Shown here one piece after another: positions 48,288 to 52,513 of a DNA stretch of 64,000 nucleotides (position 1 is its first letter; each line of letters begins with the position of its first letter). The stretch is taken from the NCBI RefSeq assembly GCF_013031405.1, contig NZ_WPZY01000005.1:124001-188000 (forward strand). Direction: 5' to 3'. A program made the translations under genes and the position numbers. Source of the DNA: Ruegeria sp. HKCCD8929 (GTDB lineage Bacteria > Pseudomonadota > Alphaproteobacteria > Rhodobacterales > Rhodobacteraceae). Below the pieces are notes generated by a model. That model saw nothing but the letters and a program-made list of their open reading frames with translations, made no database searches and was not told the DNA's origin.

Positions 48288-49859
48288 TCAGGTCAGGTCC
48301 TTGTAGCTGATCTCGCGCGCGTCGGCGCCCGGGCCGGCCTTTTCCCGGCGCACGATCAGGCGGTTCAGCGCGTTGATATAGGCCTTGGCTGAGGCGACCA
48401 CGGTGTCGGTGTTGGCTGACTGGCCGGTTGCGATCATGCCGTCCTCTTCCAGCCGTACCGAGACGGTGGCCTGCGCGTCGGTGCCCTCGGTCACCGCGTG
48501 CACCTGATAGAGCTGCAGATGTGCGTCGGTGGGATAGAGCGCGCGGATCGCGCGGAAGGTTGCATCGACCGGCCCGTCTCCGTTCTCGGTGGCGCTGACG
48601 TCCTTGCCGTCGATCTCCATCTCAACCGTCGATTCCGCCGGGCCGCCGGTGCCGCAGACGACCTTCATCGACACCAGTTGCAGATGGTCCTCATCATCGC
48701 CGCCCGAATGCATCAGCGCGATGATGTCGTCGTCGAACACTTCCTTTTTGCGGTCCGCCAACTCCTTGAAGCGGACAAAGATGTCCTTGAGCTGGTTGTC
48801 GCCCACCTCATAGCCGAGATTGTTCAGCTTGTCGCGCAGTGCTGCGCGACCCGAATGCTTACCCAAGGGCAGGGAGGTGCCGGAGAGGCCGATATCCTCG
48901 GGCCGCATGATCTCGAAATTTTCGCGGTTCTTCAGCATCCCGTCCTGGTGGATACCGCTTTCATGGGCAAAGGCGTTCTTGCCGACGATGGCCTTGTTGA
49001 ACTGGACCGGAAAACCCGACACCGTCGCGACCCGTCGCGAGATATGCATGATCCGGGTGGTGTCGACACCAGTGTGCCACGGCATGATGTCGTTGCGGGT
49101 CTTGAGCGCCATCACCACCTCTTCCAGCGCGGTGTTGCCGGCGCGTTCGCCCAGACCGTTGATCGTGCATTCGATCTGGCGCGCACCGCCTGCAACAGCG
49201 GCCAGCGCGTTGGCGGTCGCCATGCCGAGGTCGTTGTGGCAGTGGGTCGCGAAAACCACCTCATCGGCGCCGGGCACGGTTTCGATCAGCCGTTTGATCA
49301 GATCGGCGCTTTCCACCGGAGCGGTGTAGCCCACGGTGTCGGGAATGTTGATCGTGGTCGCCCCCGCCTTGATGGCAATCTCGATCACGCGGCACAGGTA
49401 GTCCCACTCGGTCCGCGTCGCGTCCATCGGCGACCACTGCACGTTTTCGCACAGGTTGCGGGCGTGGCTCACCGTTTCATGGATCTTATCGGCCATCTCG
49501 TCCATGGTCAGGTTCGGAATGGCGCGGTGCAGCGGCGAAGTGCCGATGAAGGTGTGAATGCGGTTCTTCCCCGCGTGCTTCACCGCCTCCCAGCAGCGGT
49601 CGATATCGGCGAGATTGGCGCGCGCCAGACCGCAGATGCGGCTGTTTTTCGAGCGCTGGGCGATCTCGGTTACCGCCTTGAAATCACCCTCGGAGGCGAT
49701 GGGGAACCCGGCCTCGATGATGTCGACGCCCATCTCGTCGAGCAACTCGGCGATCTCGAGCTTTTCGTCATGGGTCATGGTGGCGCCGGGGCTCTGTTCG
49801 CCATCGCGGAGCGTGGTATCGAAGATCAAGACGCGGTCTTGGTCGGTCGCATTGGTCAT
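48288..49859 (-). CDS. leuA: 2-isopropylmalate synthase
   Basis: This 523-residue enzyme catalyses the first committed step of leucine synthesis, joining acetyl-CoA and 2-oxoisovalerate. The N-terminal TIM barrel carries DTTLRDGEQSPGATM, IPDTVGYTAP and THCHNDLGMA, and the C-terminal LeuA regulatory domain (DATFRAIRALYP, VRLEEDGMIATGQ) should give leucine feedback inhibition. A leucine-rich leader peptide and hairpin lie upstream (49910-50022), so expression is probably attenuated by leucine availability. It converges with rlmJ. Confidence 0.96.
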   Translation of the reverse strand: MTNATDQDRVLIFDTTLRDGEQSPGATMTHDEKLEIAELLDEMGVDIIEAGFPIASEGDFKAVTEIAQRSKNSRICGLARANLADIDRCWEAVKHAGKNRIHTFIGTSPLHRAIPNLTMDEMADKIHETVSHARNLCENVQWSPMDATRTEWDYLCRVIEIAIKAGATTINIPDTVGYTAPVESADLIKRLIETVPGADEVVFATHCHNDLGMATANALAAVAGGARQIECTINGLGERAGNTALEEVVMALKTRNDIMPWHTGVDTTRIMHISRRVATVSGFPVQFNKAIVGKNAFAHESGIHQDGMLKNRENFEIMRPEDIGLSGTSLPLGKHSGRAALRDKLNNLGYEVGDNQLKDIFVRFKELADRKKEVFDDDIIALMHSGGDDEDHLQLVSMKVVCGTGGPAESTVEMEIDGKDVSATENGDGPVDATFRAIRALYPTDAHLQLYQVHAVTEGTDAQATVSVRLEEDGMIATGQSANTDTVVASAKAYINALNRLIVRREKAGPGADAREISYKDLT

Positions 49860-49893
49860 GTCGGTGTCTTTCTTGTCTGTCCTAAAGCCATAT

Positions 49894-49945
49894 GGCGCGC
49901 AGGCGTCCTCCTCTGAGCGGGCGCGCCGGATGGCACGCTCAGAGG
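49894..49945 (-). promoter_or_regulatory. candidate leucine attenuator hairpins of leuA
   Basis: In the transcript, CCTCTGAGCG (49945-49936) and CGCTCAGAGG (49919-49910) form a perfect 10-bp stem with a 16-nt loop. The first arm contains the leader peptide stop codon. A competing stem pairs GGCGCGC in the loop (49927-49921) with GCGCGCC downstream (49900-49894), so the two are mutually exclusive or form a pseudoknot. There is no U run after either stem, so the mechanism (transcriptional or translational) is open. Confidence 0.6.
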
Positions 49946-50022
49946 CGGATTAGGATCAGTAGGCCACGCAGCGACGCGCCACGGAGGGCGTCGGCAAAGA
50001 GGATATCTGCGTGGTTGATCAT
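49939..50022 (-). CDS. leuA leader peptide (27 residues, leucine-rich)
   Basis: This short frame opens with ATG at 50022 and stops with TGA at 49939-49941. It encodes 27 residues, of which eight are Leu and four Ile. They are concentrated at the end in GLLILIRL just before the stop, and two of the Leu codons are CTA, rare in such a high-G+C genome. The stop lies in the first arm of a perfect 10-bp hairpin. This is the layout of a classical amino acid leader peptide: ribosome stalling at Leu codons when leucine is scarce would change the RNA fold. A TATAAA (50034-50029) lies 6 nt before the ATG, so the leader mRNA may start very close to the ATG. No Shine-Dalgarno is evident. Confidence 0.72.
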   Translation of the reverse strand: MINHADILFADALRGASLRGLLILIRL

Positions 50023-50165
50023 GGGGATGAGTTTATACAGCCGCGTTCGGGAATGGAAAGAGCGAAATTGCCCGGGATCTAGAACCGGGATTGCGCGCGG
50101 GAATTGCTGTGAAAGAAGAACGGCCTATCATCTGAACGCGGGGCTTGGTCACTGGCTGGATGGGC

Positions 50166-50831
50166 ATGAATAAGGCTTTGGTAATAGGGGCTTCCGGCGG
50201 GATCGGACGGGCCATTGTGGCCGCGCTGCGAGCGCGCGGGGACGCCGTCCGGGAACTGTCGCGCTCGGTCGATGGAATGGACCTGACGGACCCGGCAGCG
50301 GTTGAGCGTGCAATGGAAACAATCGAAGGGCCATTTGATCTGATCGTTGTGGCTACGGGCGCATTGGAGATCAACAGGGCCGAACCGGAAAAGACCATCC
50401 GCGCCGTCGATGCGCGGGCAATGATGGATCAATTTGCGCTGAATGCCGTGGGACCCGCGCTGGTGTTGCGGCGCGTCCATCGGTTGCTGCCGCGCGACCG
50501 GCGGTCCGTGATTGCGGTTCTTTCGGCGCGTGTCGGCTCCATCGGTGACAACCGCCTCGGCGGCTGGGTCAGTTACCGGGCGTCAAAGGCTGCGGTGAAC
50601 CAGATCGTGCGCACCGCATCAATCGAACTGGCGCGCACGCACAGCCAGGCGGTTTGCGTCAGCCTGCACCCCGGGACCGTGGCGACCGAATTCACCCGCA
50701 AATATCTGGGACGGCATCCCGCGGTGACGCCTGAAACCGCCGCGCAAAACCTGCTTGCGGTTATCGACGGGCTAAGCCCCAAGGATAGCGGCGGGTTCTT
50801 CGATTGGGCCGGAAAGTCCGTGCCTTGGTAA
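50166..50831 (+). CDS. short-chain dehydrogenase, CsgA/C-factor-like
   Basis: This 221-residue Rossmann-fold SDR starts MNKALVIGASGGIGRAIVAAL and has the catalytic Tyr and Lys in SYRASKAAVN. The LHPGTVATEFTRKYLG and the final FFDWAGKSVPW resemble the CsgA/C-factor-like SDR subgroup, whose substrates are unknown. I chose the ATG at 50166; an ATG at 50160 and a GTG at 50145 are alternatives, and none has a strong ribosome-binding site. It is divergent from the leuA leader and converges with the MORN gene. Confidence 0.82.
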   Translation: MNKALVIGASGGIGRAIVAALRARGDAVRELSRSVDGMDLTDPAAVERAMETIEGPFDLIVVATGALEINRAEPEKTIRAVDARAMMDQFALNAVGPALVLRRVHRLLPRDRRSVIAVLSARVGSIGDNRLGGWVSYRASKAAVNQIVRTASIELARTHSQAVCVSLHPGTVATEFTRKYLGRHPAVTPETAAQNLLAVIDGLSPKDSGGFFDWAGKSVPW

Positions 50832-50907: not shown

Positions 50908-52356
50908 TCAACCGTCCGACGGCACGGGTTCCGGGGGCTCATCCACCGCGGCAGGCGCTGTGTCACCCTTGGTCAGCGCGCCCTTGTCCCAGACGCCTTT
51001 TTCCTCTTGCCCGGTGGCGTAGCGCATGGTGCCTTCACCCTGCCGTTTGCCATCTAGGAAATTGCCCTCATAGACATCGCCATTGGCATAGGTCGCAGTA
51101 CCGTAGCCGCTGATCTTGCCTTCGTTCCATTCACCTGAGTATTTGAACCCGTCGGCCATCACGATCTCGCCCTGACCCTGCCGTTGGCCGCCCACGAATT
51201 GCCCCGTATAGACCGAGCCATCGGGATAGGTCGCCTTGCCCTGTCCCTGCCGCACGCCATCCTGCCACTCCCCATCATAGCGATAGCCGTTGGCATAGGT
51301 CATCACGCCCTTGCCGTGGTTGCGAGCATTCTTGAACTGGCCCTTGTAGACGATGCCGTTGGGATAGGTTGAGGTGCCTTCGCCCTCGATCACGCCGGCC
51401 ACCCAGTCGCCCTCATAGGTCGAGCCGTCGGGATAGGTGATCTTGCCCTTGCCGTCGGCCAGATCGCTGCGCAGGTCGCCCACATAGATCGACCCGTCGG
51501 GATAGGTGACCTCGCCCAGCCCGTCGATCTGGCCCGACACCCAGTCGCCGGTATAGAGGTAACCGTCGGTGCCGATGAAGGTGCCCTTGCCGTGGCGACG
51601 ATCGTCCGAGAACGCGCCTTCGTACACATCGCCATTCGCATAGGTCACCTTGCCCATGCCCTCGCGCCGTCCGGCCACCAGTTCACCCTCGTAGACGTCG
51701 CCGTTGGCCTGGGTCAGCCGTCCGACCCCGTTGATCTGGCCATCGGCCCAGGTGCCCACATAGGCCAGCCCGTCCGGCAGGGTCAACGAGCCCTCGCCGT
51801 GGCGCTGCCCGGCCAGGATCTCGCCTTCGTAGATTGCGCCGTCGGGATAGGTGATCTTGCCCTTGCCCTCTTTCTGACCATCCACCCAGTCGCCGTCGTA
51901 GACGTAGCCGCCGGGGCTCTGCATCACGCCCTTGCCGTGGTGCTGGGCGTTGCTGAAGCCGCCCTCGTACCGCACGCCATTGGCATAGACGGCGATGCCG
52001 GTGCCGTTGATGACCCCGCCGGACCATTCGCCCTCGTAAGTGCCGCCATCGGCAAAGGTGATCTTGCCGACGCCCTCGGGCTTGCCTTTGACAAACTCGC
52101 CCTCATAGACCGAGCCGTTGGGGAAACGGGCCACGCCGCGCCCACGGATCTCTCCTTCGACCCATTCGCCGGTGTACTCGTAGCCATTGGGCAGCCGATA
52201 GGTGCCGGTGCCATGCTGCAACCCGCCGCGAAAGGTACCCTCGTATATGCCGCCAATCTCATCCTCGGTGGTCAGGATCTGCCCTTCTTGCGCAAAGGCG
52301 GGTCCTGCAGTCGTCACCAAGGCTGCAACCGTGATCGTTCTATGGATCGTTTTCAT
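50908..52356 (-). CDS. exported MORN-repeat protein (18 repeats)
   Basis: This 482-residue protein has a signal peptide at about 1-22 (MKTIHRTITVAALVTTAGPAFA) followed by 18 tandem 23-residue MORN repeats (VYEGEFVKGKPEGVGKITF type) and a nineteenth degenerate one (EEKGVWDKG). The C-terminal tail is Pro/Glu-rich. The repeats have a higher-order pattern: those with HGKG or HGTG and a final GY occur at positions 1, 5, 10 and 14. MORN domains form flat beta-sheets and bind lipids or proteins in eukaryotes; the role in the bacterial envelope is unknown. GGGG precedes the ATG at 52356. It is divergent from nadE. Confidence 0.9.
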   Translation of the reverse strand: MKTIHRTITVAALVTTAGPAFAQEGQILTTEDEIGGIYEGTFRGGLQHGTGTYRLPNGYEYTGEWVEGEIRGRGVARFPNGSVYEGEFVKGKPEGVGKITFADGGTYEGEWSGGVINGTGIAVYANGVRYEGGFSNAQHHGKGVMQSPGGYVYDGDWVDGQKEGKGKITYPDGAIYEGEILAGQRHGEGSLTLPDGLAYVGTWADGQINGVGRLTQANGDVYEGELVAGRREGMGKVTYANGDVYEGAFSDDRRHGKGTFIGTDGYLYTGDWVSGQIDGLGEVTYPDGSIYVGDLRSDLADGKGKITYPDGSTYEGDWVAGVIEGEGTSTYPNGIVYKGQFKNARNHGKGVMTYANGYRYDGEWQDGVRQGQGKATYPDGSVYTGQFVGGQRQGQGEIVMADGFKYSGEWNEGKISGYGTATYANGDVYEGNFLDGKRQGEGTMRYATGQEEKGVWDKGALTKGDTAPAAVDEPPEPVPSDG

Positions 52357-52513
52357 GGCTGCCCCTGTCTGCTCTGTTTCAATCACTACTCTGCTCGGCA
52401 GCACAAAATTAGGCCACCGCCGGGGGCGGAGCAACGTCTTTTGCCGCATTTATCTTTTCCTCGGGGCGTGATCTGGTAAATGGCTTGAGGACTGACGAGG
52501 GCAAGAGGGCAAA

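Follow-up and report, generated by a model that had tools for sequence, protein, structure and literature searches.

This locus raises the question of how a short, leucine-rich reading frame lying upstream of leuA might control that gene. An original prediction, made from the letters of the window (the whole analysed stretch of 64,000 nt from Ruegeria sp. HKCCD8929), had proposed an attenuation-like leucine switch on leuA and had allowed that translation might be the controlled step. Comparison of sequences supports this proposal, and we put the probability that the element is a leucine-responsive translational attenuator of leuA at about 0.6. The genes and signals concerned are the following.

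48288 to 49859, minus strand: leuA, encoding 2-isopropylmalate synthase (open reading frame list; TIGR00973, leuA_bact; HMGL-like and LeuA_dimer domains).
49939 to 50022, minus strand: leader reading frame of 27 codons plus TGA, with seven Leu codons (open reading frame list).
49868 to 49873, minus strand: AGAAAG, probable Shine-Dalgarno (SD) sequence of leuA, 8 nt 5' of the ATG and outside helix H3 (see below); called from complementarity to a 16S 3' end.
50032 to 50037, minus strand: TATAAA, a −10-like box ending 9 nt before the leader ATG.

The 27-codon leucine leader that had been placed upstream of leuA was borne out; it runs from 50022 to 49939 on the minus strand and its peptide is MINHADILFADALRGASLRGLLILIRL. 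Seven Leu codons were counted in it instead of the eight claimed. They are clustered at the end as described, four of them falling within the last nine codons, and both of the rare CTA codons are present. Among the Leu codons of the 36 long ORFs of the window, CTA has a share of 2.3% and CTG of 63%. When the 617 ATG-started ORFs of 12 to 40 codons in the window were examined, this leader was the only one with at least four Leu codons in its last nine. A short leader with clustered Leu codons, as is characteristic of amino-acid leader-attenuators, was found in the window, at 30 of 30 leuA loci of the genus and at 78 of 80 named loci. As to the two remaining named loci, the contig of L103 starts within leuA, and no element can be recognised in L100. 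The latter is an AT-rich Paracoccaceae MAG in which leuA is present and the element absent, possibly through loss.

Statistics were computed on 78 loci, namely L031 to L110 without L099, L100 and L103, plus L001; L099 was dropped as a genus-level relative, and the other 29 genus loci stayed outside the statistics. Across this set the frame and the Leu run are preserved while individual Leu codons change. The last nine codons of the leaders contain CTT 122 times, CTC 121, CTG 79, CTA 61, TTG once and TTA once, a usage compatible both with sensing through rare codons and with complementarity to purine-rich start regions. Another feature of the leaders is a hexamer, [CG]ATATC (GATATC at 50002 to 50007 in the window), mostly at leader nucleotides 16 to 21. 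Of the 56 leaders in which the −10 box is close, 34 contain it, although they differ in the codons that separate it from the Leu run.

A −10-like box lies 4 to 12 nt 5' of the leader ATG in 67 of the 78 loci, against 8.6 expected when the 20 nt upstream are shuffled, and it lies exactly 7 or 8 nt from the ATG in 55 loci, against 2.3 in the shuffles. With the usual promoter spacing, transcription starting from such a box would begin at the leader ATG or adjoining it. The closeness of the box in most loci therefore suggests that the leader mRNA is leaderless or nearly so, as had been supposed, the position of the promoter being a prediction; the distance itself had been given as 6 nt and is 9 nt. 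Leaderless mRNAs are many in Caulobacter crescentus (PMC4117421), and trpL of Sinorhizobium meliloti is leaderless as well (PMC10117765), according to the available portions of these papers.

The leucine leader element is real, widely conserved and far from what chance produces. A covariance model trained on the named loci and the window (R1) matched all of the 196 genomes sampled from the order, which represent 87 genera, and gave one match in the window's own genome. In the class sample it matched 24 of 191 genomes, in 22 of them just upstream of leuA. A broader model, R2, gave 71 matches in 69 of the 191 class genomes; 63 of the 94 class genomes bearing leuA have such a match no more than 600 nt upstream of the gene and in its orientation (63 matches in all), a recovery that is not independent since R2 was built partly from class genomes which it found again. 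In the phylum sample R2, which is tuned to the class, matched 75 of 299 genomes, 73 of them Alphaproteobacteria; the two matches outside the class are weak (E 0.001 and 0.007) and are read as chance. A script search of the class sample found the element at 55 of 89 leuA loci, compared with 3 positives among 267 dinucleotide-shuffled sequences and 8 among the 89 reverse strands (89 of the 96 leuA places were examined, the own genome and six lower-ranked places being excluded). No Rfam family, Leu_leader included, matched the window at its gathering score, and a search of 49800 to 50120 with E up to 5 returned one chance match, on the plus strand. The element would thus give the Alphaproteobacteria a widespread leucine control element that is absent from Rfam.

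The element is not tied to one enzyme family, because in the two loci tested of family group f13 (L258 and L259), which we read as sphingomonad-like, it precedes a LeuA of TIGR00970 and not of TIGR00973. We take TIGR00970 to be the actinobacterial type of LeuA. By eye, the element also precedes a LeuA of this type in L262 and L263 of the same group.

The RNA downstream of the leader start was then considered as three helices, all on the minus strand. Three alignments were made, of 36 sequences (A1), of 75 (A2) and of 47 (A3, comprising the window, 41 of the 49 class-level elements and 5 named loci).

49936 to 49945, minus strand: 5' arm of H1, containing the leader stop codon (minimum free energy fold; swap z 10.6; sister pairs 8:1).
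49910 to 49919, minus strand: 3' arm of H1 (fold and alignment).
49921 to 49927, minus strand: 5' arm of H2, within the loop of H1 (swap z 7.9).
49894 to 49900, minus strand: 3' arm of H2 (swap z 7.9; without class-level support).
49950 to 49959, minus strand: 5' arm of H3, CTG-A-TCCTAA, in the leader Leu codons, with one bulged A (fold; swap z 13; sister pairs 22:2).
49877 to 49885, minus strand: 3' arm of H3, TTAGGACAG, ending 17 nt 5' of the leuA ATG (sequence and fold).

The 174-nt leader folds at −68.2 kcal/mol, whereas its shuffles average −51.5 kcal/mol (sd 4.2, z −3.98), and none of 200 shuffles was as good; the minimum free energy fold includes H1 and H3. Covariation was measured in two ways. 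In the swap test, a leader is paired with the downstream region of its own locus and, for comparison, with the regions of the other loci, without regard to how closely the loci are related; relatedness is taken into account only in the sister-pair test. H1 is a perfect 10-bp hairpin, CCTCTGAGCG with CGCTCAGAGG, and the leader TGA lies inside its first arm, just as the original prediction had it. Its covariation is seen in the swap test (z 10.6, 78 loci) and in 39 sister pairs, where the own partner was better in 8, worse in 1 and tied in 30. Of 47 class-level sequences, 36 have G-C and 7 have A-U at the pair formed by the second base of the stop codon; by this alternation the stop codon and its H1 partner covary. 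In the alignments, the nucleotides of H1 are very strongly conserved.

H2 is the 7-bp pairing of GGCGCGC in the H1 loop with the complementary GCGCGCC downstream (49900 to 49894). It had been described as a stem that competes with the hairpin. The pairing with the loop does exist; competition does not necessarily follow from it, since H2 can be drawn as a pseudoknot together with H1. Compensatory changes had been expected in both stems, along with conserved Leu codons. The Leu-rich frame and H1 agree with this expectation, and so does H2 in the swap test (z 7.9 in the 78 loci, mostly Rhodobacteraceae), but not in the sister pairs, where 17 were better, 13 worse and 9 tied (not significant), or at the class level. 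There a class-wide pseudoknot was unsupported (z 1.5 for 49 class-level elements), and the H1 loop more often holds a small hairpin of its own, which scores at least 12 in 39 of the 49 elements compared with 40% of shuffles. Given the sister pairs and the class-level z, H2 appears to be at best a feature of a subgroup.

H3, which the original prediction overlooked, is the helix with the best evidence and the one that best accounts for the switch. In it, the Leu codons at 49959 to 49950 form nine pairs, with one bulged A, with TTAGGACAG at 49885 to 49877. Over the 78 loci the score of the own pairing was 16.5, against 13.0 for swapped regions (z 13), and in 39 disjoint closest pairs chosen by LeuA identity the own region won in 22 and lost in 2, with 15 ties (p 1.8e-5). 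The 13-nt leader window beside H1 used here was fixed after the alignments had been viewed and is a post hoc choice; as checks, five leader windows shifted to the 5' side gave no signal, and a class-level set with a 25-nt window gave z 6.5 for sites no more than 30 nt from the start codon. An initial search, in which the leader window was wider and the gene starts poorly placed, had given a weaker difference (own 17.2, swapped 15.2). Thus, of the helices that ribosomes on the leader could disrupt, H1 and H3 both carry compensatory change by the swap and the sister-pair tests.

The position of H3 relative to the start of leuA varies. A strong ungapped H3 occurs in 57 of the 78 loci, mostly Rhodobacteraceae, and in the other 21 it is below the score threshold. 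It overlaps the SD by at least 3 nt in 12 of the 57, and in 37 its 3' arm ends 16 to 25 nt 5' of the start codon; at the class level, SD overlap was found in 23 of 44 strong H3. In the window, a base stem between the Leu codons and the leuA SD itself was not found, and H3 stops 5' of the SD. In five loci (L034, L043, L044, L050 and L055) an extra ORF separates the element from leuA, and there the 3' arm of H3 is the SD of the intervening ORF, 5 to 8 nt from its start codon, which is GTG in L055. We regard this as the strongest indication from natural variation that H3 acts on the initiation of whichever gene comes first. As to the intervening ORFs themselves, that of L044 encodes a cupin (Pfam Cupin_2), those of L034, L050 and L055 are cupin-like as judged by eye, and that of L043 has 55 codons.

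From these features the following mechanism may be proposed. When leucine is sufficient, ribosomes would complete the leader and depart, and the last Leu codons thus freed would form H3 with sequence that coincides with the SD of leuA or lies immediately 5' of it. H3 would close a compact domain that encloses H1, and also H2 in the Rhodobacteraceae-type set, and the closed domain would hinder the loading of ribosomes on leuA. When charged Leu-tRNA is scarce, a leader ribosome would stall at the clustered Leu codons and cover their strand of H3, so that the start region of leuA would stay open and leuA be translated. The Leu codons that sense leucine would double as the anti-initiation strand. 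It suggests a minimal form of translational amino-acid control, in which a single sequence serves as codon, sensor and anti-initiation strand.

A fold model was used in which a ribosome-sized block is placed on the Leu codons; H2 is omitted from it, and 74 loci were modelled, 4 of the 78 being skipped. In the window, the block lowers the cost of opening −26 to +3 from 11.8 to 3.8 kcal/mol, and that of opening the core site, −15 to +3, only from 3.5 to 3.0 kcal/mol. Over all 74 loci the core site becomes cheaper to open, at 4.9 instead of 6.3 kcal/mol, and in the 12 loci with SD overlap at 4.7 instead of 10.3 kcal/mol. This last decrease makes direct masking of the SD credible, in the model, for part of the family. 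It is not claimed for the window, because H3 ends 5' of the SD there; in this genus, ribosome loading would be hindered just 5' of the SD, a weaker version of the same control.

The customary reading of Leu-codon leaders, by contrast, places the control in transcription. A classical transcription attenuator of the trp or leu type was rejected, since no hairpin followed by a U-run was seen before the gene in the 78 loci or in the scan of the window. The original prediction had already remarked that no U run follows either stem. None indeed follows the hairpins in the window sequence, and a terminator scan of 49700 to 50200 returned nothing on the minus strand. Transcriptional attenuation might still proceed by other means, translation of the leader altering the fold (H1 against H2, or H3) and, when leucine is plentiful, polymerase pausing or Rho terminating before or early in leuA. 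A Rho-dependent step had been proposed earlier, and H1 and H2, which both use the H1 loop region, could be alternatives. Nevertheless, we consider this course unlikely: no terminator-like site was found by that scan, in none of the 78 loci do five consecutive T occur in the 60 nt that follow H1, TTTT within 45 nt is seen in only 5, and H3, the helix that covaries best, tracks the SD of the first gene.

The nearest described system, which the element appears to resemble, is the actinobacterial LEU element of leuA (Seliverstov et al. 2005, PMC1262725), which, in the available portion of that paper, combines a leader that has a Leu run, a pseudoknot, and a base stem in which Leu codons pair with the SD. 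Both lie upstream of leuA, have a leader ORF with a Leu run and no terminator, and close at the base with a stem that joins Leu codons to the SD region of leuA. A loop segment complementary to downstream sequence, which can be drawn as a pseudoknot, may be a further likeness. They differ in that the hosts here are Alphaproteobacteria, that H3 of the window ends 5' of the SD, and that the pseudoknot lacks class-level support outside the Rhodobacteraceae-type set. We liken the element to the LEU element and do not class it as one, since its stem in the window lies beside the SD and the comparison is with a published description and not with DNA. In the literature searched, a LEU-type element was found described for Actinobacteria only; Lopatovskaya et al. 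2010 and Vitreschak et al. 2004 may mention alphaproteobacterial leuA leaders.

For the LEU element, the authors of PMC1262725 preferred a binding protein, because attenuation did not account for the leader mutations that had been published; as far as the available portion of that source goes, those actinobacterial mutation data also count against translational attenuation in the present case. Here, too, the folded domain might be the binding site of a regulatory protein and the Leu run serve mainly for pairing, a view with which the very strong nucleotide conservation in H1 agrees; but the frame and the Leu run are retained while the Leu codons change, and we regard it as quite improbable. 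Very improbable is a coupling by re-initiation, in which ribosomes that terminate at the leader stop would start again on leuA, folding having brought the two sites close together: the stop codon within H1, the closing of the domain beside the leuA start by H3 and a general proposal of re-initiation after leader genes (PMC4833913, available portion) speak for it, but its sign is wrong for feedback (more leucine, more leuA) and the distance from stop to leuA, 63 nt to several hundred, is far from the 10 to 13 nt peak of that paper.

The proposed leucine-responsive translational attenuator also has partial counterparts elsewhere, compared here with what the available portions of the sources describe. 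LeuL1 of Streptomyces lividans (PMC8079986), which contains LLLLS, is reported as a leaderless leader of leuA with no typical Rho-independent terminator, as is predicted here; its host is an actinobacterium. The trpL/peTrpL attenuator of Sinorhizobium meliloti (PMC10117765) is a leaderless amino-acid leader ORF of an alphaproteobacterium, a tryptophan attenuator that also yields the small RNA rnTrpL; the leuA leader here has no visible terminator. LeuL of the Epsilonproteobacteria (PMC3847290) is a short ORF preceding leuA, in which rare Leu codons are clustered; transcription termination was proposed for it.

The natural variants of the element (SD within H3, SD just 3' of H3, another ORF in first place, another enzyme family) make the proposed mechanism directly testable. 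In translational attenuation of the erm type, too, stalling of a ribosome on the leader makes a ribosome-binding site further downstream accessible; in that type an antibiotic is sensed and not an amino acid, and the stalled codons are not themselves the anti-SD strand. Tentatively, and with some doubt, one ancient leucine switch might be common to Alphaproteobacteria and Actinobacteria, with the Leu codons as its anti-initiation strand, and might have outlived the enzyme that it controls. If so, a starved ribosome would directly uncover the start of the next gene.

Two observations concern the neighbourhood of leuA. A 17.9-kb 'plasmid' record of Phaeobacter inhibens M650 (L226, NZ_CP081282.1) carries leuA and rlmJ adjacent to each other as in the window and is probably a piece of chromosome; the PLSDB table, which is incomplete, lists no leader gene for it. 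In the window, an ORF of 513 aa near leuA (50908 to 52449, minus strand) consists largely of repeats of the YPDGS-YEG-W type, which by eye are MORN-like.
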